Shown one piece after another: positions 6,435-53,212 of a stretch of DNA of 64,000 nt (the stretch's first letter is position 1; each line of letters starts with the position of its first letter). The DNA is from Cinnamomum chago (lineage: Eukaryota > Streptophyta > Magnoliopsida > Laurales > Lauraceae): positions 74,966,501-75,030,500 of the forward strand of contig CP142452.1 of the NCBI GenBank assembly GCA_038049695.1. Reading direction: 5' to 3'. The position numbers were made by a program, and so were the translations under genes. The notes below the pieces were generated by a model. That model was given only the letters and a program-made list of their open reading frames with translations. It was not told where the DNA came from and made no database searches.

Positions 6435-7529
6435 CTAAGAGGCAGAGAGAGCCTCTAAATTCAAAAAATCCAGGAGGGAGTTGAGCTGAAGACTAGCAAA
6501 AGGCTTGGAAATCTTCCTTAGAGAGAAGCAGAGATCTTCATTCAGAAGGGCTAAGATTTGATGGAGGGGGATACTGTGACCTTCAAAGGTGGCTAAGTTC
6601 CTAACCTTCCAGAGAGTATGCAGTGCTGAAAGAAAAGTGGAGGCCATAATAATCTTGCCATATTGGTCATTACCTCTGGTGATAGAGGTCCAGATAGAAG
6701 ATGCAGTATAGGAGGGAGGATGTTGAGCCTTTGAGGATTGAAGCAGCCAATGCCATACTGATTGGGCTATGTTGCAGGAGAAGAAAAGATGGTTGACTGA
6801 TTCAGATTCCTTGAAGCAGAGGTTGCATCTCGATGCTAGGGAGAAGCCCAGGTGCTGCAGACGGTCTTCAGTAGGGGTGCGATTAAGCATCAAGCGCCAT
6901 CCGAAGCAGGAGACTTTTGGTTGTGAGATGCCATTCCAGATCAGAGGAGGCCAAGGAAGAACATTGTCTTTCAGTCTAAGAGCATCCCAAGCCTTTTGTT
7001 GTGACAGATTTCCATCGGTAGCCTCCTTCCAGTGGAGCTGATCACTAACCGAGGGACTGGGAGAGAGAAGAGAAGTAGCAGCAGATAGCAGGTCACGAGT
7101 TGGAGATGGTAAGCTGAGTGGGAAGTGCCAGGCGTCTGAGTGGAAGAAGTAGGCAAGTCTCTGGTCAAGAGGGAAGTTCAGAGTGGGGAAGACTGCCGAG
7201 AGGGGCTTGTCCCCATGCCAAGTGTCATGCCAGGTATTGATGCTCTCTCCATTGCCAAAAGTCCATGCACTACCTTGGTGGATGAAGTGAGAGAGACGCC
7301 GAATACGCTTCCAGATACTTGACTCGTAGGTGGTATTAGCAGGATTCCAGATGGTGGTGCTCTTGAAGTACCTATTCTTGAACCAGGAGGACCAGATTGA
7401 GCTCGTCGTGGATGCTTGCCAGCCCAGCTTGATGAGAGAAGCTTCATTAACTTCTGAGATCTTTCTAATGCCCAGCCCTCCTTCTTGCTTTGGGAGAGTT
7501 ACTTGAGACCAGCTGACATGGTTGATTTT
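6435..7529 (-). pseudogene. LINE ORF2 C-terminal region with zf-RVT domain
   Basis: Continuation of the LINE protein after a stop at about 7,530. From 6,893 down to 6,435 an open frame of 152 codons matches the zinc-binding region found C-terminal to plant LINE reverse transcriptases (zf-RVT): LNRTPTEDRLQHLG, a C-x2-C pair in CNLCFKESESVNHLFFSC, then WHWLL. The stretch 6,894-7,529 also reads as LINE protein but is split among frames. The large + strand frames here (for example 6,769-7,041 and 7,140-7,322) are its antisense shadows. Confidence 0.85.
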
Positions 7530-12000: not shown

Positions 12001-12220
12001 AATGCTATTGTGACCATATTGTAATGATTATTTTGCTGGATATTATTAGAACATCATGTCTAGTGGTTGTACTAGTACTTTTTATCTTTTATACATCTTT
12101 GTCATGATCAATGGGCTTTTTAATGATAATTATGTGGTGCAGATATATATATGGGAAATTCTAAAAAACGCTCCACTTCAAAAACACCCCCTTTTTTGCT
12201 TCAACCTTGCCTCCACCCCA
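9050..12220. other. Expanded intron / intergenic stretch, no gene seen
   Basis: Shared with copy 2 (39,565-42,200) and copy 3 (61,303-64,000). It holds a 'gtggcggacctaggatt' segment near 10,073 resembling a worn hAT-like end, a possible MITE at about 10,843-11,055, and AT-rich sequence. No coding region was recognised. Confidence 0.45.
10843..11055. mobile_element. Possible MITE with diverged inverted ends
   Basis: The left edge reads TGTTTGGATGGAAAAGAGGAG. The right edge, read on the other strand, gives TGTTTGTTTACATGAGAAG and further in AAGAGGAGTATGG. The inner arms also form a short hairpin around CATGTAAACAAACATG. It is present in all three unit copies (near 40,870 and 63,080), so it predates the duplication. 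Target duplication not established. Confidence 0.35.
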
Positions 12221-12226
12221 CCCGCC

Positions 12227-12832
12227 GGCGGAGGATCAAAAGGTAAAGACCCGAAGCGGCGGCACAGCCCATACCAAAGCTAGGAAAAGGCTGAAGGGCT
12301 GCCTGTGGGCTCCAAAAACAAGCCCAAGACACCCATCTACATGACCCACGAATCCGACTGCACCACGAAGACCGCTGTGATCAAGATCCCCCCAAGCGGC
12401 GACATTGTCAAGGGTGTTGCCGTCTTCGCCTTCCACTGCCTCATTGGAATTTGCATCCTCAGCTGCGTTGGCGCCGTCGCAAATGTCTCCTTCATCGACT
12501 CCACCGCCTCCCATGCCCATTCATCGACCTTCACACTGAATGGACATTTTGAAACCCTCTCCCTCTCTGCCACCTTTTTCACATGCCGTATTCCGCCATC
12601 GCCGTCGCAATCCTCCTCCTTGGGCTCTCCAACGGAGTTACTGATCACCATTACTCTCGTGGGAGCTAACGGACAGGTGATTAGAGGGAAAGTGGCTGGA
12701 GCATTGAGTGTCGCTGGCCCTGTCGTTGTATTGGTAGCGTCTTTTAAGTATATATCTTTACTCCGTCTACGACCAGCGAGAGAAGAAACCAACAATACAA
12801 ATCCTAACATCGGCGCCGCCAATGCCGGTTAA
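12227..12832 (+). pseudogene. AHL (PPC-domain) sequence, copy 1
   Basis: Derived from an AT-hook motif nuclear-localised (AHL) gene; these proteins bind AT-rich DNA through an AT-hook and oligomerise through the PPC domain. The frame from 12,305 keeps the AHL linker GSKNKPKTPIYMTHES, then PPC features AVFAFHCLIGICILSCVGAVANV, LNGHFETLSLSATF and ITLVGANGQVIRGKVAGAL. The AT-hook before it is broken: RKRLKGCP stands where RRPRGRP is expected, and one missing base puts it out of frame with GSKNKP. An in-frame TAG lies just upstream of the ATG. The GRFEIL motif is GHFETL. A TAA at 12,830 ends the frame. No intron is visible, as in type-I AHL genes. Confidence 0.82.
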
Positions 12833-12898
12833 CGTCGGCCCAGCTCCGAACACCATGAATCACCAGCTTCCTTCATGGAAAATATCTTGGCTATGCAG

Positions 12899-13383
12899 TA
12901 CTATTACTATGATGCTAGGAGTGGCCATCGATTCCGATCAAAGATAGAGGTTGACAGCTTCACCCAGATGGGAGAGGTTCCAAGATACAAACCCAAGACC
13001 TAAAAGCAAAGAATCCAATGTTTTACATACAGAATGACTTCACCTCCAACTCTTAATCATGTCAGCAAGCACTTGCCAAGTTTCAAGAGTAAGTTCATTT
13101 CATTTTTCTCGTTAATCACTATTGAAATATGTATTCCAGGTTGTAGTCTTGAGAGCTCTCTACATCACTTGTTCTCACTTCTGGTTCTCAGGTTGTGGTT
13201 GAAGTAATCAACATCCTGTCAGATCGTGAGACGGAAAAGGCAACAGGAAGAAGACATCAAGCTGAAATAGACAGAAAAAATCGCCGTATGATGTATCTTT
13301 TTGTACTGATTGAGGCTTTAATTTCACGGTTACCGCACATGTTTGTTCAATTTATTCACGATATCCTATCATCGTCAAAATGA
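12899..13383 (+). pseudogene. MBD exons 2-4 downstream of AHL, copy 1
   Basis: Sequence from 12,899 matches the second half of the MBD (YYYDARSGHRFRSK, then GEVPRYKPK). It starts right after CAG, the old splice acceptor for exon 2. One extra base shifts the frame after RYKP and creates a stop. The following text (SPPTLNHVSKHLPSFK) corresponds to exon 3, but the usual intron 2 is absent. A donor at 13,089 and acceptor at 13,191 keep intron 3, and exon 4 (13,192-13,383) reads VVVEVINILSD, then ATGRRHQAEID. Only the TAA at 12,830 and a 15-base in-frame deletion separate this copy from the continuous AHL-MBD frame in copy 2. Confidence 0.75.
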
Positions 13384-33834: not shown

Positions 33835-34084
33835 ATGGAAAGCTCGAGTTCGATTCTTCCATCATATTCTGTATAACCCAAATATATTGTCTGACTTATT
33901 GGCATACAATACTTCTCACCTATACAATGACCCACGGCCAATTTCCCCTCTCATCGCCAACAATGGGAGAATCAAGAACATTGCAAAAAAAAGAAGATGG
34001 AAGAGGAGTGAAAGGAATTTTGATTGGTTGATGGAGGTTAGAATCCACATAAACCGTGCCATTGAGGGCACCATGAGGAATAGG
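33835..34084 (+). pseudogene. Decayed MBD gene exon 1 (unit copy 2)
   Basis: Equivalent of 287-538. ATG 33,835 opens a Ser-rich start. The end keeps WLMEVRIH and the GT donor, but the core MBD motif is lost. The exon 2-4 remains of this locus are fused to the AHL sequence at 42,944-43,428, about 8.9 kb downstream. Confidence 0.6.
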
Positions 34085-36005
34085 GTAACTTGTCAACCGG
34101 GTTTTCATTGATATCTGCTATGCTTTTCTAACACGTGTAGTTTCAAACAATAGAAATATAGAGTTAGAGATTGGTTCCTTGTTTTAATTTAATTTTTATG
34201 TATAGTATCCTTTCCTTTTGTTTTCATGTTCATTTCCTTACTTTCCTAATTCAGTTTTTAGAACTTTGAGGTTCATGTTATTTAATATTAGCAACTTTAC
34301 ACTCTTCTTTCTAAGAAACGTTTTGGGTATGGTTTTTTTATTTTTTATTTGAATTTGTGGGATTTATAATAGAAGGTTAGATTTAGATAATAGATTTGAT
34401 TAGTGATATTTTACTATTTATCTAACTGTTATTGTGAGAATCTTTAAGTGTAAGGTTGATTGAAATGGCAGTTTGATGCATTTAAATTTGTTTTGCAGTC
34501 TATGTAGACAGTAAAACTGAGTTTGATTGGTTATATTTAGTATTAATTTGAAAAAAGAATTGTGGTACTATAAAGATCTTGAAGCAGTTAATTGTTTGGT
34601 TTTTATTTCTTTTTTCTATCTTCTTTCTTCCACGTTGGGATTTTACAAAGGATGGAAATGTTTGTTTTCAGTTTGAACAATGGTTGAATTGAAAGAAAAG
34701 TTACTAGTGTGATATTTTCTCATTCTATAAAAATGCTCAAGTTCTGGTGGTCATATCGTTGGTAGGATAAGATATTTTAAGAATTCTTTTATATCTATGT
34801 TTGCTGGTTCACATTTTCCATTAGAAATGTTCATGTCTCATATTAGGCCTAGTCTGACAACCTATTTGATAGATGTGGGCCCTCACATGGGCCCTCACAG
34901 GGCGAAACACTGAATTCTTTTTAGGGAGGGCCAAAGTAAAAAAAAAAAAAAATCCATTAAAAAGTTATAAAATGTAATAATTAAATACATAATAGATAGC
35001 ACTCAAAAGTGAGATTACATTATTCTTATTTAGTGAAATCAGAATCTGAGAAGTTCTTGTCATAACCCTTGTCAGCTAGCACTCAAAAGTGAAATTATTA
35101 ATTATTATTTTGGAACAAACAAATATGCCCACTATTATATATTTATGAGCAGGACCCATATTTAAAATCTAGACCATTCAAAAGGATGGTCCCACTAGTT
35201 TTATCCCATCAAAAGAATTTACTTAAATCATAATTATTCTAACATAGATAATCACAATTACCACATAACTTTTTTAGAATTGTTTTTCCTCTTTCTTTTT
35301 TTTATTTTTTATTTCCTTTCCTTTCTTTTCTTCCATCATTCCGCCTTATTATTTTGGAACAAACAAATATGCCCACTATTATATATTTATGAGCAGGACC
35401 CATATTTAAAATCTAGACCATTCAAAAGGATGGTCCCACTAATTTTATCCCATCAAAAGAATTTACTTAAATCATAATTATTCTAACATAGATAATCACA
35501 ATTACCACATAACTTTTTTAGAATTGCTTTTCCTCTTTCTTTTTTTTATTTTTTATTTCCTTTCCTTTCTTTTCTTCCATCATTCCCCCCCCCCCCCCAA
35601 AAAAAAAAAAAAAACCCAAAAAAAAATATATATACTACGTTTTTGTTACTTTTTTAGAATAAAAACCTAAATTGATTAATTAATATTATAAGGTGGGGCC
35701 ATCCATCAAAAGAACTTTTGGGTTGGGGCCGCGGGTTTCCGGGTTTTGAATGTGAGAGAGATCCATTTTAAATGGTTTTACTGATGGAGCCCACCAAAGG
35801 TAAGCAAAAATGGTTTTAAAAGGGCTTTCGCCCTTCTGCGACGGTAGAAACGGAATGAATGAGAGCAGCAGCAGCAGCAGCAGCTAGAAGAGGTACGCAA
35901 AACCGGTTCTCTTGGGTGTCTCTCTAATGTATCTATTTTTTTTTATTTTTTTTCTGATCATCCATCTCTTGGGTCGTTACTTGATGTATGACTGGCAAGC
36001 AAAAC

Positions 36006-38770: not shown

Positions 38771-41700
38771 GTGAGAAAAAATCATGGCTAATATATACGC
38801 AAGCTGTATGGAAATTTTGCTTTACAATATCATTGATTACATTGTGTTGGTAACAGAGCAAGTTCGATTCCCTTGGTCTTGGTTTGGATTTGTAGAGAAA
38901 AAAATTACTGCAATAAGTTTAAAATCAACCATTCAAGATGAGATGTTTATTGTTAGGAATACCCTTAACAAAATGCTGTTAAATATTGAGACCATAGCTG
39001 ACTTGGTTGGGATCTCTCTCTCTAGGACGGACGATTGAAAATAATTAATGAGATATGACCCAGGTTAAAGATTTTAATTTATGATAATTGTGGGTGGCAA
39101 GTACAACAATAGGATAGTTGACATGATTCAAAGAATTTGATTTACAAGTACCTAACAGTAGGAGTCCATGGTTCAAGTAATAAGAATCACTGATGTTTCT
39201 TTGTGAATAAGTAGACAAGGTTAGGCCACTAGTCAGGATTAACCTTACTTCTTTTACAACTTTCATATGCCGACTTGAGTTCGGGCAAGGTCCTTTATGC
39301 AGCAAATAGGGTTAATCAATGAGGGAATCCCATGATAGGTTCAACTCCTATAAGTCAGCCCTTAATATGGTCTGTGTATCTTGTGGCTGTTGTAGAATTG
39401 TCCTTACTCAGCTGATATATGTATCAGCTGTTATAAACTTCTTCGCATACAGCAGGATTCTCGTACTATGTTTGACCTCATTCTCATATCCAGCCAATTA
39501 CATTTGCAACAGCCCCAAAAATTGGGTTTTGTTTCTGCTTTCCATATCTAAATACATTCCAGTGATGTGCTTTGTCAAGGTTTCTTAATTACGTCTGAAT
39601 TTGGCTTTCTTCTTTCAGTTGGGCCTAGGTTCCTAATTTGTAATTCCTTACTCAATTCCAGTTACTAGGCACAGGACATGACGGCTGAATTTTGACAACC
39701 ATTACCCTTGTACTTGACTCATCAACCCTGGATCATGGTGGAAGATCTGAAACCACTTTCTTGTAGGGTTCAGCTGCTACAATCTGGTCCAATATCCAAA
39801 CTGTTTGAGAGCAACCAGCCCTTAGGTCTGGTTGCTACCAAATTCCAGGCCCAATCATGAACCTGTTGTACCAAAAATAGGGCCCACATGACAGTCTGCA
39901 AACATGGGCTGTTTCCATTTGCCAGCACTACTTGTTCAATGTTTTACTATGGTTCAGGTCACACATTATTAAAAGATTGAACATCATTATTAAAAGTCTA
40001 GAAGATGACAGTTATAGAAGAATTTGAGTTTCTTTATCTATGGTATGTTTCACATAACAAAACTAGATTTATAGGAAAAATCAAGAACGGAACAAGAGAA
40101 AATAGATTTGCACTTAACGACACTAAATATTGTTACCAAGGATCATCAACAAATTAAAACCTCATGGATTTGTCAGAAAACCTCAAAACCAGAATTTATA
40201 TAATGAAGAGATGTCCAAAGACAAGGAAACCTCTCAATCATATTCATAAAACCCCCAATTCGAATGTGAATCAAATCTTTAGTGAAGAACTAATCGAAAT
40301 CAAACCTTAAATCACAAACATGAAGAGATATAGTTGATGATGAAAAGGATACTAAGAGATCCAGAGAATTCAAAATAAATCATAGCTTGGAGAGGCCTCT
40401 TCTTCTTCTTTCAGTAGATCTCCCCAAATTCCACCAGTTTCTTAGAAGGGGTCGTTTGGTGGCTTCCATTTCGGTTCCTAGGAAATGACTAAAGTCATCA
40501 TCCTCCGCATTCGACATCAGCACCTCTGTCAGGTCTACTTACCGTCCACATCCCATACACAAAGCTGTCAATAAGTGGCGGACCTAGGATTTTCGTTTGA
40601 GGGGTGCTAATGATGCTCATTTGAAAAGGTTTCTTTTTCTTTTTTTTTCATAAATATCCAATTTGATACGTGTCCATGAGTTCTAAGAGCTATTACAAAA
40701 ATCATAGTAGTTTTTTAATAACGCAAAAATCATAATACTTTTCTATAAACGCAAAAATCATAGTAGTTAATTAAAACTAATATGAGATAAAGAGCCAACA
40801 CCATGTAAAGTTCTTTGTTCTTGTTTGATTAAGTATGACACGTATCGGCCTATATTTTTACTTGGATGTATTTTTGGATGGAAAAGAGGAGGGGCGTGTA
40901 AATAACTGATGTGAGTTTTACCCCACTTTATACCTTTTTGTTTATTCTCCACAACTTGGATAAATTGGGGTAGTGTAGAATTCTGTCTTTTGTGTTCTTT
41001 TACTTAAACCCTCGTTTCCTTTAATCTTGATTTGACCATACTCCTCTTATACTCCACTTCTCATGTAAAGAAACATGTAAGAAGAGGAGTATGTAAGTCC
41101 CACATTAGGAGTCTTTTAGAGGAAAGTTTACAGAATGACATAAAGATTGTCAGAGAGATGTAATTCTAATAAATCAAGCATAATCTAAACTAATCACTTA
41201 TTGAATGTTTGAGGTGATTTGAGGGTGATCTGAGTCTTCTTGTGGTAGAGAATATATATATCGGGCCCAAAGAAAGAAATAATATCCTACAAGACCTACA
41301 CTTCTTTCTCTATTTTAAGCAAATATCTGTTTATATCCCACACATCTTTCTCTATCTTCTCATGCATCAAAATGAGAAGAACTCATCTAAGTACTTTATA
41401 AAAATCTAGATATTTGATTTTTTTTTCTTTGATTATTTTAGGTGTCTCTTAATTGTTTATCTTCAAAGAAAGACTGTTTTTATAAATTTGGTTTTATATT
41501 TAATATCTCCCTCCTCTTCAATTGTTGAATTTTCATTTAGGAATTTTTAGTTTTTTCTTTTATGAAGATCCATACAACTATAGCCGGTGAGTTTCAGCAG
41601 TTTAGATTTTTTTTTTATTTCTATTGTGCCTAGTTTTCTCTTATTTTTCTTTTTTTCACATTTTCTATTAAATTTTCTTTTTTTATAATCGTTAAAAATT

Positions 41701-42214
41701 GCCTTTATTGTAATATTCAACTAAATATTATTCAGTTACCTACTTTTTTTTGTCTCTTCTGTTTATTGTCTCTTTTTTTTTTTTAATTCCAAAAAAATCC
41801 TGCAAGCTAAGTATTAATTTATTTTTCCAAGTTTTTTTAAATTTATCTTTACTAGTGTTGTTTATTTTCCAATATGTGACATCATCTTATTGCATGTGAT
41901 TTTCTTTTTGCTAGTCTTACATTAGAAAATCAATTAATTAACATTTCAATTTTCGTTTTATATTTTAAAAGAAGGAAGAATGTAATAATATTCTATATAG
42001 TACATTACAAGGGGATATAGGTGCATTGCCAATGCTATTGTGACCATATTGTAATGATTATTTTGCTGGATATTATTAAAACATCATGTCTAGTGGTTGT
42101 ACTAGTACTTTTTATCTTTTATACATTTCTGTCATGATCAGTGGGCTTTTATAATGATAATCATGTGGTGCAGATATATATATGGGAAATTCTAAAAAAC
42201 ACTCCACTTAAAAA
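38771..42214. other. Flank and expanded intron of copy 2, no gene seen
   Basis: Matches 5,530-12,220 without the LINE; the empty LINE site is near 39,558. A segment of about 480 bp present in copies 1 and 3 (near 10,370-10,840) is missing near 40,855. No coding region was recognised. Confidence 0.45.
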
Positions 42215-43048
42215 ATGCCCCCTTTTTGCTTCAACCATGCCTCCACCCCACCCTCCGGTGGAGGATCAAGAGGTAGAGACCCAAAGCGGCAGCACAACCC
42301 AAACCAGAGTCAGGAAAAGGCTGAAAGGCTGCCCGTGGGCTCCAAAAACAAGCCCAGGACACCCATCTACCTGACCCACGAATCCAACTGCACCACGCAG
42401 ACCGCTGTGATTGAGATCCCCCCAGGCGGCGACATTGTCAAGGGCGTCGCCGTCTTTGCCTTCTGCTGCCGCATCGGAATTTGCATCCTCAACTGCATTG
42501 GCGCCGTCGCAAATGTCTCCTTCATCGACTCCGCCTCCTCCCATGCCCATGCATCGACCTTCACACTGAATGGACGTTTTGAAACCCTCTTTCTTTCTGC
42601 CACCTTTCTCACATGCCCTATTCCGCCATCACCGTCTCAATCCTCCTCCTCGGGCTCTCCATCGAAGTTGCTTATCACCATTACTCTTGCGGGAGCTAAC
42701 GAACAGGTGATTGGAGGGAAAGTGGCCGGAGCATTGATTGCCGCTGGCCTGGTTGTTGTGCTGGCTACGTCTTTTAAGTATATATCTTTACTCCGTCTGC
42801 AGCCAACGAGAGAAGAAACCAACAATACAAATCCTAACATCAGCGCCGCCAATGCCGGTAGTGGCGATGCCTGTTTACGGCCACCCAGCTCCGAACACCA
42901 TGAATCACCACCTTCCTTCATGGAAAATATCTTGGCTATGCAGTACTATTACCATGATGCTAGGAGTGGCCATCGATTCCGATCAAAGAACGAGGTTGAC
43001 AGCTTCACCCAGATGGGAGAGGTTCCAAGATACAAACCCAAGACCTAA
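42215..43048 (+). CDS. AHL-MBD chimeric open frame, 277 codons
   Basis: One uninterrupted frame joins two families. Residues 42-59 are the AHL linker (GSKNKPRTPIYLTHES). Residues about 61-192 are a PPC domain (IEIPPGGDIVKGVAVFAF, GAVANV, GRFETL at 120-125, ITLAGANEQVIGGKVAGAL). Residues 193-243 are an altered AHL tail. Residues 244-277 are the second half of an MBD (YYYHDARSGHRFRSKNEV, GEVPRYKP). The frame crosses the old exon 2 splice acceptor (CAG at 42,941-42,943) without splicing. The AT-hook (RKRLKGCP, expected RRPRGRP) is out of frame by one base and not in the protein. The first MBD half, with the DNA-contact loop, is absent. Expression is unknown; it could be a young chimeric gene or a pseudogene still open by chance. 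Confidence 0.6.
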   Translation: MPPFCFNHASTPPSGGGSRGRDPKRQHNPNQSQEKAERLPVGSKNKPRTPIYLTHESNCTTQTAVIEIPPGGDIVKGVAVFAFCCRIGICILNCIGAVANVSFIDSASSHAHASTFTLNGRFETLFLSATFLTCPIPPSPSQSSSSGSPSKLLITITLAGANEQVIGGKVAGALIAAGLVVVLATSFKYISLLRLQPTREETNNTNPNISAANAGSGDACLRPPSSEHHESPPSFMENILAMQYYYHDARSGHRFRSKNEVDSFTQMGEVPRYKPKT

Positions 43049-43428
43049 AAGCGAAGAATCCAATGTTTTACATACAAAATGAGTTCACCTCCAACTCTTA
43101 ATCATGTCAGCAAGCACTTGCCAATTTTCAAGAGTAAGTTCATTTCATTTTTCTCATTCATCACTATTGAAATATGTATTCCAGGGTGTAGTCTTGAGAG
43201 CTCTCTACATCACTTGTTCTCACTTCTGGTTCTCAGCTTGTGGTTGAAGTAATCAACATCCCGTTAGATCTTGAGACAGAAAAGGCAACAGGAAGAAGAC
43301 ATCAAGCTGAAATAGACAGAAAAAATCGCTTTATGATGTATCCATTTGTACTGATTAGGGCTTTAATTTCACGGTTACTGCACATGCTTGTTCAATTTAT
43401 TCACGATATGCTATCATCGTCAAAATGA
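43049..43428 (+). pseudogene. MBD exon 3-4 remains behind the AHL-MBD frame
   Basis: After the frame stop, the exon 3 text continues without intron 2 (SPPTLNHVSKHLPIFK) to a donor at 43,134. Exon 4 from 43,237 reads LVVEVINIPLD, ATGRRHQAEIDRKN up to TGA at 43,426. One extra base after RYKP keeps it out of frame with the chimera; the same shift occurs in copy 1. Confidence 0.65.
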
Positions 43429-46332
43429 GTTAAGTAGAATTCCCGAGGTGGTGATGAGTGTGAGGGTTCGGGTATAACCTAAATTGGACCAAGTTGATGC
43501 AAGAGCAAAGACTCATGCAACACAGAAAACTTTTTTTTTTTGTAAGAAACAACGCGGAAAACTTAACACAATCAATTCCTAGACTTGCCTCACCTAATAA
43601 AGGCTGTAAAAAGACTAGGTCTCTGTCCATGGGATACCAAGTGCTTTTTAATCAACAGATTTTGGCTTTGACCTATGGATCCAATAGACTCAAATCTTAT
43701 CAGTTACCCTTTTTTTCTTTGTTGTTGGAAAGATCTTATCATTTATTTGGTTATTGTTATTATTAAATATTAACTATATTAAACATAATATTATACATGT
43801 TTTAATGCATATTTATTATACATATATTGGTTATAATGCAGATTTGATTGGCGTCGTCAAATCCATATAGCCGACCCCACCTAGTGGGAAAAGGCTTGGT
43901 TTGGTTTGGTTTTTTGTTCACCTGAGCATCACCACTCAAATGAACTTATGGGAGAGAGCTCTGTTGAGTTGTCACCAATTTAATTTCATATTGATGGAGA
44001 ATATCCTAATCATTGGGTCCCACCCAACAATTTTTTGAACCATTTATATATTTATTTGAGTGGGAGAGAAGATATAGCTATTTCCACCCACATGCCTTTT
44101 ATTCACATAGCTTTTTATGTCGACCGATATTATAATTAGTCTCATTTACAGCCTCTAAACTAGTGTTTTCTACTCCCATGTGCTTAAAAGTGTTACATGG
44201 GGCAGCACAACCAGAAACCCGTGAAACATTAATCAAGAAATAAGAACTTAGATAGTCATATCCATTGGTCAAGGAAGGGTTACATGGATCCCAGTATTGC
44301 AAATCGTGTATCATTGGTTATGATTCACCTCTTGTCCATGATTTCGTTGTGGGCTTATAAAATATCATATATTTTGAATCACTTGTGTAATTGCTCTCAA
44401 TTTTCTTGAGGGTAAGGTTTTAAATCTAAAATTCAAGTGATTGATCTGATTATCCATTTTCTATTATAAGTTGCAGATATTAAAATTTGATTTTTCTACC
44501 CATGGTTACATATTTGCTCAAATATGTGTTGTTTTTATGTTAAAACTAGATATTGCTATCCACAGGCAATGAGCTGTCATATAATGGTTGTATCTATACT
44601 TATAGAAAGCTTAATTTCATGTTTATTCCAAATTTTGGTTCAATTTATGCATGGCATCTTTCATTGTTGATAAATATGATATGAGACAAGTGGCCACACC
44701 AAGCAAGCCTTTTACAACTGGAAAAAATCTCAAGGAATTAATGCTTACACTTAATTTGGGAGATAACCATATATATAGATTGCTTCATTTTAAGGTTGTA
44801 AAACGACTAAGGACAATGTCCGGGTTATCATGCCTAATGGATACCAATGCCATCTTTTAATTACCATGTATTCTCGCCTGGACCTGATGATCCAATGGAC
44901 TTAGTCCTATATCATTGACTTGATTATTATTATTATTATTATTATTCTTATTATTATTAAATATATAAAAATTATGGGAGAAAGCCTATATGCTTATGGT
45001 ATATACATATATTGGTAACTTTATTAACTTGAGCGTCAATACAGAAAGAACTTTATGAGAGAGAGCCTGTATGCGGCCCAGGTCTGATCCCATCCTCCCT
45101 ATTTATAGCCAATTACCAACTCTATTCCCACCTAGTGTGCATGCAGAACTCTGCCAACACTAACTTCACATCAGTCTAGACTATCTTCAACTTTGGGTTT
45201 CACCGAGCAAGTTTTTAGACTCACTCATAATGGATGGCTAGGATGTTGGTTATTATCAAATTTGGTCTTGATCCCTCTTTGTTCCATGAAGGCTTACAGA
45301 TTTAGTTGCAAAAAATTCTTGAATAGGATAAACAAATCGACAAGTAATGGTAGTATGTATCAATATCCTCCAATCCGGAACTTGTATAGAGTCCAAATGC
45401 ATTTGACCTAACTAACACCCTCTCTCCATTTTTTGAGACTACAATCCAATACCCATAGTTAAAAGGTTCCCCTCCTTGTCACCACTGGATTTCACACGTC
45501 AAATTTAATTTTGGGGAGAGGGTAGTGTGGAAAATATCTCAATTGTCTGATATCCTTTGAATATTAAATTTAATGGACCCTCTATCCATGCATAGCAGTT
45601 TTCCTTCCCCTTAGCTTTTTAAATATTTAATTGATTATACTAATTCATCATATGTATAAGATCAATGGCTCACATCCAACATGAAAATTCACTCAAAAAG
45701 GATGGCTAAGAAGTCAACTATTAATAAATCAATGGCTCTAATCCTTTTCCGTGTCTCCTAGGTGGACAAAATCTTTTGTAATGGATTCATGTGCAAGAAT
45801 AGTTAATTTACAGGCAACAGAAAATCTGTATCCTAATCCTACAATACTAAACTTCGTAGAGAATCCAAATGCAAGTAATCCAGTTAAAATCCTTTTCATA
45901 TTTAGCAATGCCAACTTATCACCATAATACTGTATCCTTATCCTTATCTTTTGTACTGGATTCATTTGCAAGAATGGTTAATTTACAGGCAACAGAAAAT
46001 CTGTATCCTTATCCTACAATACTAAACTTCGTAGAGAATCCAAATGCAAGTAATCCAGTTAAAATCCTTTTCATATTTAGCAATGCCAACTTATCACCAT
46101 AGGTTAATGCAGCCCTCTCAGTCATTCCCATTTTTAGCAATAACAACTCATTATATATAGATGTTCGCTGGATGAGAAGCACCGTCTCAACTTAAAAGAG
46201 CACCTTCCTATGTCTCTCTACATCAAAGCTCTATAGAAACTTTATTGTTCTTCTTCTTCTTCTCCTGGAGCCAATATCCTTCTCCTTACCGGCGGAGTTG
46301 GATTCGTATTCTGAGATCCTCCCTGGGTTTCA
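43429..46332. other. Upstream region of MBD-e
   Basis: Matches 13,384-16,840 with internal deletions. It contains a 69-codon frame at 44,651-44,860 (see 15,357), a (TTA)n tract near 44,925-44,960, an SINE end at 43,833-43,912 and a tandem duplication of the upstream block (about 45,770-45,925 and 45,948-46,105) that is single in MBD-a. The TATATATAGA element is at about 46,152. Confidence 0.5.
43833..43912 (+). mobile_element. Au-type SINE 3' fragment, specific to copy 2
   Basis: The text 'tagccgaccccacctagtgg' then 'gaaaaggcttggtttggttt' matches the 3' end of plant Au SINEs (CCCCACTTAGTGGGATAAGGCTTTG plus a short T/G repeat tail). Copy 1 lacks it at 13,772. The 5' part is truncated. Confidence 0.7.
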
Positions 46333-48012
46333 ATGGCCCTCCACACAAGAACTATCTGTAAAGAAGCAGAAGAAGCGGTGAGGGAAGAATGTGAATCAAA
46401 CATTTTTGCATTGCCATCTGAAGTGAACCCTGCTCCATTACCCGCGACAATGGGATCGAGGAGGGGGCGTAAGAAGAAAACTGAGGAGGAGTGTGTTGAG
46501 TTCTGGTCTCAGAGGCCTGATTGGCTGCCAGAAGGCTGGACAATGAATGTTAAAGTCCAAAAGGATGGTGCCACAGCAGGCATAAGGGATCGGGTAATTT
46601 GGTGTTCTTATTTTTAACCTTTTGATTATACGGATGTCTAAGATTTAGAATAGAAGATTGGATTTACATAGGAGATCTGTTGTTGGGTTCTGTATGTTGT
46701 TTGGATTTACATAAGGGTGACATTGTTGCTTTTGTCAAAATTATAATCCTTATAAATGTAAATAATCTAAACTTCTGCTATTCATTGTCTGAGGTGGTTT
46801 GAGAACAACACCAATCCTTTCGTGGTTGGAAACATAAATATCCTATTCGTGCACTCTAAGATAAAAATAATTTCTACAAGGCCTACGGATGTTTTTTTTT
46901 TCAAAGAAAACTTCTATTCAAATCAATGTCTTTAAGAAAATCTTCCCATCAACATCTTACCGTATTCTCCAATACATCAACATAAGGAAAATCTATAATT
47001 ACCATTATGCAGAAGGGAGTACTCGTCGTCCTCCTCCTCCTCATCATCATCAAAGACTTGTCCCAATAGTGTTGGGAATTATATAGAGAATATATATGTG
47101 TGTGTGTATAACATTAAAACCTTTTTCTATTTATTTTAAAAAAATTATTCAAAGTTTAACCACTTCGGTAAAATTGTTATAATATTAATTCTAAACATAT
47201 GCCGTAAGATTGATTGTGTATATAATAGAACTGGTTAGTTTTGGTATTTACTAGAAAGTTAAAATTGAAAATTGTTGGTGTGCTTTATGTTGCTATTTTT
47301 ATTTATTGAGTTTATTTATTTGAAATTGGTTATTTTGGATAAGCCTTAATATTATGAACTTTTCAGCACTTTTATGAACAAAGGACCGGCCATCGATTCC
47401 GATCGAGGAAAGAGGTCGAGAAGTTCATCAAGACGGGCGAGGTTTCAAGATACAAGCCCAGACCTAGAACCAGAGAATCCAATGTTGTACCTACGGTGAG
47501 TTCTAGAATTGTTCTCTTCAAGATTCACTGTTGAGATTTGATCAGTGCTAGAGATTTTCATGATAAAGTGTTTCTTCCTTTCTTTTTTTAAGTCTTCTCA
47601 GAACTCCAACCCTACTCCAAGTAGTGACATGCTGTTGCCTCCAACCCTTGAATTCTACAAGAACTTGTGTAAGGATCCGGCCCATTTCTACCGGGCTGAT
47701 ATTGTCCGCTTTGGCCCACGGGCCTCACGGGTTTGTTCTTGGACATTCCGGCTCGCTAGCGCCCAAAACGCGTCAACCAAATAAGGCCAGCATCCCACAG
47801 ATAGCCAGGACTCGGGGCAGCCTCATAGGCGATGTGGGACGGGGAACCTGGGTTCTCACAACTTGCAAAGTTACATGAGTATGTTTATTTTTTTTCCCTC
47901 AATTTGTCATTACTGCAATATGTGTTCTGGGTATTGTGGACTTGAGAGATTCAATGCATCACTTGTTCTCACTGTTGGTTTCCAGGTGGTGGTAATGAAT
48001 AGTCTGGAGTAG
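46333..48012 (+). pseudogene. MBD-e: MBD5/6-like gene split by a solo LTR
   Basis: Counterpart of MBD-a in copy 2. Exons: 46,333-46,593 (87 codons, ATG 46,333), 47,367-47,495, 47,602-47,878 (interrupted) and 47,986-48,012. Exon 1 ends GSRRGRKKK, RPDWLPEGW, KVQKDGATAGIRDR; exon 2 reads HFYEQRTGHRFRSRKEV, GEVSRYKP. Changes: KVRKD is KVQKD, exon 2 starts with His, and one codon (Ile) is missing in exon 3. A 193-bp LTR (47,668-47,860) sits inside exon 3 and shifts and ends the frame. The MBD itself lies upstream of the insertion, so a shortened MBD protein is still possible. The acidic N-terminus is deleted as in MBD-a. Confidence 0.75.
47668..47860. mobile_element. 193-bp solo LTR in MBD-e exon 3
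   Basis: The insert starts TGTAAGGATCCGG and ends GGTTCTCACA (TG...CA), flanked by the 5-base duplication ACTTG at 47,663-47,667 and 47,861-47,865. MBD-a, b and c show the uninterrupted site (AAGAACTTGCAAAG). It is GC-richer than its surroundings and has no internal region, which fits a solo LTR from a short LTR element (possibly TRIM class). Confidence 0.88.
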
Positions 48013-52970: not shown

Positions 52971-53212
52971 ATGGAAAGCTCAAGTTTGATTCTTCCTTCA
53001 TATTCTGTAACACCCAAATATATTGTCTGACTCATTGGCATACAATACTTCTCACCTATCCAATGACCCATGGCCAATATCCCTCTCATTGCCAACAAGG
53101 GGAGAATCAAGAAGATTGCAAAAAAAGAAGGAAGAGGAGGGAAAGGAGTTTTTGTTGGTTGATGGAGGTTAGAATCCAGATGAACCGTGCCATTGAGGGC
53201 ATGAGGGATAGG
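52971..53212 (+). pseudogene. Decayed MBD gene exon 1 (unit copy 3)
   Basis: Equivalent of 287-538, beginning ATG at 52,971. The end reads WLMEVRIQMN and GMRDR before a GT donor, slightly closer to the intact MBD-c ending than the other two relics. Its downstream exons would lie beyond the window. Confidence 0.6.

Follow-up and report, generated by a model that had tools for sequence, protein, structure and literature searches.

An open reading frame joining AHL and MBD sequence in Cinnamomum chago is probably one copy of a chimeric pseudogene

Baz2B-type animal proteins carry AT-hooks and an MBD/TAM domain in one protein. In plants, the families closest to the locus described here are the AHL proteins, with their PPC (DUF296) domain, and the MBD5/MBD6-type methyl-CpG-binding domain proteins. 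In SOB3 (AHL29, Arabidopsis; allele sob3-6), one missense mutation of the central AT-hook is reported to abolish DNA binding but not interaction, and the resulting protein is dominant negative when overexpressed (PMC9377115, PMC5529009). In a literature search of CC0, CC BY and CC BY-SA papers, no protein combining PPC and MBD was described in a title or the start of an abstract.

The open frame studied here lies in a 64 000-nucleotide stretch of the C. chago genome (C2:74966501–75030500; hereafter the window, whose numbering is used below). It shares the PPC domain with the AHL family and is 77.5% identical in DNA to an AHL of the same genome, L008, which has AT-hook and PPC in one frame; it differs in that the RGRP core is frameshifted, the N-terminus and tail are out of frame and the sequence is truncated at both ends. 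Its final part is homologous to exon 2 of the MBD genes in the surrounding array, whose joined exons match Arabidopsis MBD6, but only the C-terminal half of that domain is present, exon 1 being degraded and kilobases away and the likely splice donor lost. As in sob3-6, PPC is kept and the AT-hook inactivated; however, sob3-6 is a point mutation in an otherwise whole, overexpressed gene (PMC9377115, PMC5529009), whereas the AHL part here is truncated and mostly broken. As in animal proteins such as Baz2B (the subject of PMC10783490), an element for AT-rich DNA and an MBD-like domain occur together, but those proteins have whole domains, no PPC and a function. We conclude that 42215..43048 is very probably one copy of a chimeric AHL–MBD pseudogene and not a new kind of protein. 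The features of the locus, all on the + strand, are as follows.

42215..43048, +: chimeric open frame, 277 codons and TAA
42228..42935, +: AHL-derived fragment, 77.5% identical to L008, about codons 17–257 of 267 (blastn, E 1.3e-163)
42237..42371, +: 45-codon AHL N-terminal remnant, which in the original AHL frame reads MPPPHPPVED... and is followed by a TGA (translation)
42324..42340, +: AT-hook core with a 1-base deletion common to seven of seven copies (alignment)
42401..42778, +: PPC/PCC domain (PF03479), residues 63–188 of the frame (Pfam)
42851..42871, +: site of an 8-base deletion in the AHL tail; the tail beyond it is out of the AHL frame (alignment)
42932..42943, +: AHL/MBD junction, TTGG followed by CTATGCAG with the old acceptor (alignment)
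42944..43045, +: exon 2 of the MBD part, encoding the C-terminal half of an MBD5/6-type domain (tblastn, alignment)
43075..43089, +: likely former exon-2 splice donor, GT changed to AT in seven of seven copies (alignment)
34025..34084, +: decayed MBD exon 1 remnant, about 8.1 kb upstream of the AHL part (search with DNA of copy L005)

Read from stop to stop, the frame (42212..43048, +) has 278 codons, 277 counted from the ATG at 42215, and the coding part up to the stop codon (42215–43045) reads as one uninterrupted frame, as the initial annotation stated. The PPC domain that it placed at codons 61–192 corresponds to a Pfam match (PF03479) at residues 63–188 of 277 (54.2 bits, well above the cut-off of 25; E 2.2e-14), and its assignment of codons 244–277 to an MBD exon 2 half also holds: position 42944 is the start of codon 244, and the final 34 codons are exon 2 of an MBD5/6-type gene in frame with the PPC. 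In 2000 dinucleotide-preserving shuffles of 42212–43048 (all three frames of the + strand), the mean length of the longest open run was 110 codons, with a 99th percentile of 213 and a maximum of 278; a frame longer than usual chance is expected here, since most of it was recently PPC-coding. A PDB sequence search with the frame's product returned two chance matches only (best E 0.24), and an AlphaFold model built on seven alignment rows was uninformative (mean pLDDT 33.8).

The nearest relative outside the array is L008 (C11:51541405–51541980, C11 51.54 Mb; 61% identity in tblastn with the product of the frame), and the other AHL-type matches listed by tblastn have an identity of at most 44%. 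From its ATG, L008 encodes a 267-residue AHL that contains RPRGRPLGSKNKPK and whose PPC scores 63.7 bits, a value exceeded by one of the array copies, L003 (67.6 bits). Where L008 reads RPRGRPLGSKNKPK, the frame reads AERLPVGSKNKPR following a 1-base deletion that alignment shows in all seven copies, and the RGRP core is absent. An 8-base deletion relative to L008 in the AHL tail is present in six of the seven copies; copy L004 has a larger, overlapping deletion whose length fits. The shared MP(I/V)YG reading points to L008 as the keeper of the old tail frame, which the copies would have lost. Between them, the 1-base and 8-base deletions put the AHL part out of frame at both ends: the AHL N-terminus is read in a different frame, the PPC in the correct one, and from about 42860 onwards the AHL frame is lost again. 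The AHL part's own ATG at 42237 matches the start of L008 but reaches a TGA after 45 codons, such that the original start and stop no longer lie within one frame. As the parent is intronless and the fragment lacks both ends of its coding sequence, the AHL part is at most a candidate retrocopy.

AHL similarity stops at 42935, in a TTGG that is also found at the intron end of L031 (C11 27.47 Mb), a locus with MBD exon 2 but without AHL sequence, where the intron end reads TTGGCTGTGCAG. The two sequences may therefore have been joined at these four bases, which both possess. The frame then crosses the old splice acceptor (TGCAG at 42939–42943), as had been proposed from the sequence. On its own, the MBD half has no Pfam match at E ≤ 10; in L010 (C2 74.757 Mb), one of the array's MBD genes, this exon matches the Pfam MBD (PF01429) with E 5.4e-5, and exons 1 and 2 of L010 joined do so with E 4.7e-11, the best solved relative of the joined exons being Arabidopsis MBD6 (7d8k, E 4.6e-15). 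Identity between the MBD half and the other exons 2 of the array is 53–69% (tblastn). All 29 solved MBD sequences matched include the N-terminal half, and since this half is missing, that part of the frame is not the 'methylation-reader module' first suggested; of a complete methyl-CpG-binding domain, only exon 2 is present, with a degraded exon 1 remnant 8.1 kb upstream. Of the splice sites of exon 2, the CAG acceptor is kept while the likely donor GT reads AT in all seven copies. Compared with L031 and with four further MBD genes in the window, all seven also carry one extra base after the MBD half, and this base gives the frame its stop in six copies; L005 reads differently there. No convincing inverted terminal repeats were found in 40800–44500, only arms of 14–23 bases at 73–87%, and capture by a mobile element was rejected on that ground.

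A tblastn search with the product of the frame over the 1.06-Gb genome (14 contigs; counts are lower bounds) found the PPC together with the exon-2 half in at least seven places on C2, spread over about 280 kb: the 42215 copy (L001) and L002–L007. The six copies with enough downstream sequence (L001, L002 and L004–L007) each lie 3.4–4.4 kb upstream of exon 1 of a two-exon MBD gene. The related features of the array are as follows.

12198..13000, +: sister copy L004, with a TAG, a TAA and a 15-base deletion (tblastn, alignment)
16961, 18944, 24924, 31269 and 46450: MBD exon 1 in the window (tblastn)
17877, 19365, 28060 and 47367: MBD exon 2 in the window (tblastn)
3.8 kb upstream of L002: degraded exon 1
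53156–53212, 11.2 kb upstream of L003: degraded exon 1
476–526, 11.7 kb upstream of L004: degraded exon 1
4.1 kb upstream of L005: degraded exon 1
9.1 kb upstream of L007: degraded exon 1
C2 74746891, 74773424, 74801946 and 74900396: approximate starts of degraded exons 1 of the third type

A degraded MBD exon 1 of a third type thus lies upstream of six of the seven copies, 3.8–11.7 kb away, and no further exon-2 match intervenes between it and its copy. Missed at E 0.01 over the whole set, they came to light when a search at E 10 of the 10 kb preceding every copy revealed the one of L005, whose DNA then located the equivalent stretch at six of the seven copies; these searches yielded none for L006. 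The stretch around the remnant of L001 (33705–34372) is 77% identical to its L005 counterpart. The remnants bear out the idea that an intronless AHL sequence sits just before exon 2 in the intron of a decayed MBD gene, and they leave the odds on function unchanged. Along the array, the third, degraded type of exon 1 was seen in seven places, besides two better-kept types.

Several other features of these regions are recorded here for their own sake. The MBD gene whose exon 1 is found at 46450 has an insertion of about 198 bases in an apparent third exon (47662–47865), with AACTTG direct repeats at 47662–47667 and 47860–47865, resembling a small mobile-element insertion. The array spacer at 35102–35589 holds a 244-base tandem duplication (99% identical). 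Two long frames on the − strand, 364 and 370 codons from stop to stop with low ends near 6438 and 7964, sit in a G+C-richer part of the window. On C11, L031 (C11:27471001–27476000) and L032 (C11:40875001–40880000) are dispersed MBD exon-2 loci with no AHL match, whose sequences agree at about 94% along 2.9 kb and at about 92% along 1.9 kb; their exon 2 occurs as 153-base tandem copies (three and two, respectively), four of the five with an in-frame TGA. The same 153-base period is seen in the tandem units of L005, but the repeat unit differs.

The seven copies decay differently. Two TAG codons interrupt L002 and one TAG L003; L006 has a TAG, an extra base and a TAA; L007 has an extra base in the PPC, the three TGA of its tblastn row all lying before that base and out of register. 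For L004, the TAA and the 15-base deletion noted in the initial annotation are both there, the TAA at the deletion, but the TAA is not its only stop, as the N-terminal part has a TAG too. Private stops or frameshifts therefore affect five of the seven copies, one stop (L002) and one frameshift (L007) falling inside the PPC segment. Neither L001 nor L005 has any, but the L005 frame runs into its four 153-base tandem units of AHL tail and MBD exon 2 (L010 1637–2243, C2:74751637–74752243), such that L001 alone is open through the PPC and the complete half domain with a stop of its own. Only in this copy does the ATG at 42215 share the frame of the PPC; in three others it is one base off, and three lack it; L003, L004, L005 and L006 at least have in-frame ATGs farther upstream, in the non-AHL flank. 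Against an intact parent, the family thus carries fixed frame disruptions, two shared in the AHL part and one after the MBD half, together with the private ones in five of seven copies, as a chimeric pseudogene would.

The rates of substitution were examined in a PPC segment of 175 codons with one stop masked; columns with a gap in L001 were dropped from the alignments of most rate tests, the simulations and the N/S counts. Omega within the cluster was 0.60 with L008 included (LRT against 1: 11.5) and 0.63 for the seven copies alone (LRT 9.2), compared with 1.14 and 1.17 in the other two frames. A category-matched pair test, read from its observed/expected ratios as its permutation P values are too small (both directions summed), placed N/S at 0.71 of the neutral expectation for the true frame, against 1.02 and 1.38 for the other two. 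The LRT of 11.5 is tempered by CpG-aware neutral simulations, which already give average omegas of 0.81–0.87, although they are rough, the simulated copies having kept 21–26 CpG against 32 in the real ones. Under four settings, 7, 9, 18 and 38 of 500 simulated omegas were at or below that observed (P 0.014–0.076); smaller simulations gave 0, 0, 1 and 2 of 60, and one without the CpG effect 0 of 60 at or below 0.60. A single stop was observed in the segment against 3.2–4.3 expected in simulations (P 0.10–0.19), and low omega and low stop count arose jointly with P 0.002–0.010 (4 × 500 runs). Second codon positions of the PPC differ by 0.052–0.058 between sister copies, comparable to the 0.029–0.068 of noncoding flanks, the class-corrected ratios of observed to expected change at positions 1, 2 and 3 are 0.87, 0.70 and 0.85, and omega on the L001 branch is not different from 1 (LRT 0.46). 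In plain counts from three independent pairs, the N-terminal part has N 24 and S 10 and the MBD half N 9 and S 1; both parts show no sign of constraint and look neutral. The dN/dS check initially proposed for the PPC thus returned a weak excess of silent change there and there alone, but a signal that is marginal once calibrated and at most weak, and nothing supports selection on a PPC–MBD fusion.

This weak constraint, confined to the PPC segment, bears on the possibility that the PPC frame, with its AT-hook lost, once made an AHL-like protein that joined AHL oligomers without binding DNA, the MBD half being a passenger tail only, and is now mostly dead. The shared deletion falls in the AT-hook core, and the SOB3 AT-hook missense reported in PMC9377115 and PMC5529009 offers a precedent. 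However, calibration leaves only a marginal signal, the N-terminal peptide varies among copies with a different or absent start codon, and the L002 stop and L007 frameshift lie inside the PPC segment; we regard such a past as unlikely. A more elaborate version, in which a family of AT-hook-less PPC proteins was once selected as poisons of AHL oligomers, gained a half-MBD tail through the dead acceptor and still has one product, that of L001, strikes us as very unlikely. A genuine PPC–MBD fusion protein in present use could appeal to 277 open codons with a recognizable PPC, but the AHL sequence is frame-broken at both ends with its AT-hook core destroyed, only half an MBD is present, with nine replacement changes to one silent, the PPC and half domain are open with a stop in one copy of seven, the start codon is private to L001, the likely exon-2 donor is lost and constraint is weak at most. 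The working PPC–MBD protein first envisaged is thereby left unsupported, and its existence is highly improbable. Tandem arrays are prone to collapse in assembly, which might have joined AHL and MBD sequence artificially; against this, the same junction recurs in seven copies that have private differences and are spread over about 280 kb. An assembly error, which the initial annotation had allowed for, is thus largely refuted, and we give it hardly any credence.

Under decay as a chimeric pseudogene, an open L001 needs little explanation. Over the tree of the seven copies, the stops expected and the separate stops seen are 1.6 and 2 in the N-terminal part, 3.4 and 1 in the PPC, and 2.8 and 3 in the tail and MBD half, the TAA of the sisters L004 and L006 being taken as one. 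About 2.1% of weighted substitutions in the frame are nonsense. The probability of no stop on the L001 branch is 0.55 at a terminal length of 0.034, and 0.44 and 0.21 at longer assumed lengths of 0.0465 and 0.09, such that, even in the absence of selection, such a branch would leave the frame open in roughly one case out of two. That L001 is still open would follow from the scarcity of near-stop codons in PPC-coding DNA and from a branch too short for many stops; the agreement in frame between MBD half and PPC would be fortuitous (a chance of one in three). One open copy in seven is in line with decay.

The history that best accounts for these observations begins with a fragment of an intronless, L008-like AHL (about codons 17–257), which would have landed in intron 1 of an MBD5/6-type gene, its end joined at the 4-base TTGG overlap to the final eight bases of that intron, just ahead of exon 2. 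Before amplification, the MBD gene presumably decayed, with exon 1 degraded, the exon-2 donor lost and a frameshift downstream of exon 2, while the AHL part probably lost its AT-hook frame and tail frame, an order suggested by the disruptions common to all copies; gene conversion between copies could be an alternative way of spreading them. The AHL–exon-2 unit would then have been amplified along with the MBD array into the seven copies, each decaying separately and probably yielding no product, and the open reading across AHL and MBD parts in one of the seven would be an accident.

The locus provides a clear case in which fragments of two chromatin-protein genes were joined and then copied in a tandem array, and its seven copies show that an open frame is able to outlast function. 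If the weak constraint on the PPC is real, the family would represent a natural dominant-negative-type AHL born from debris.
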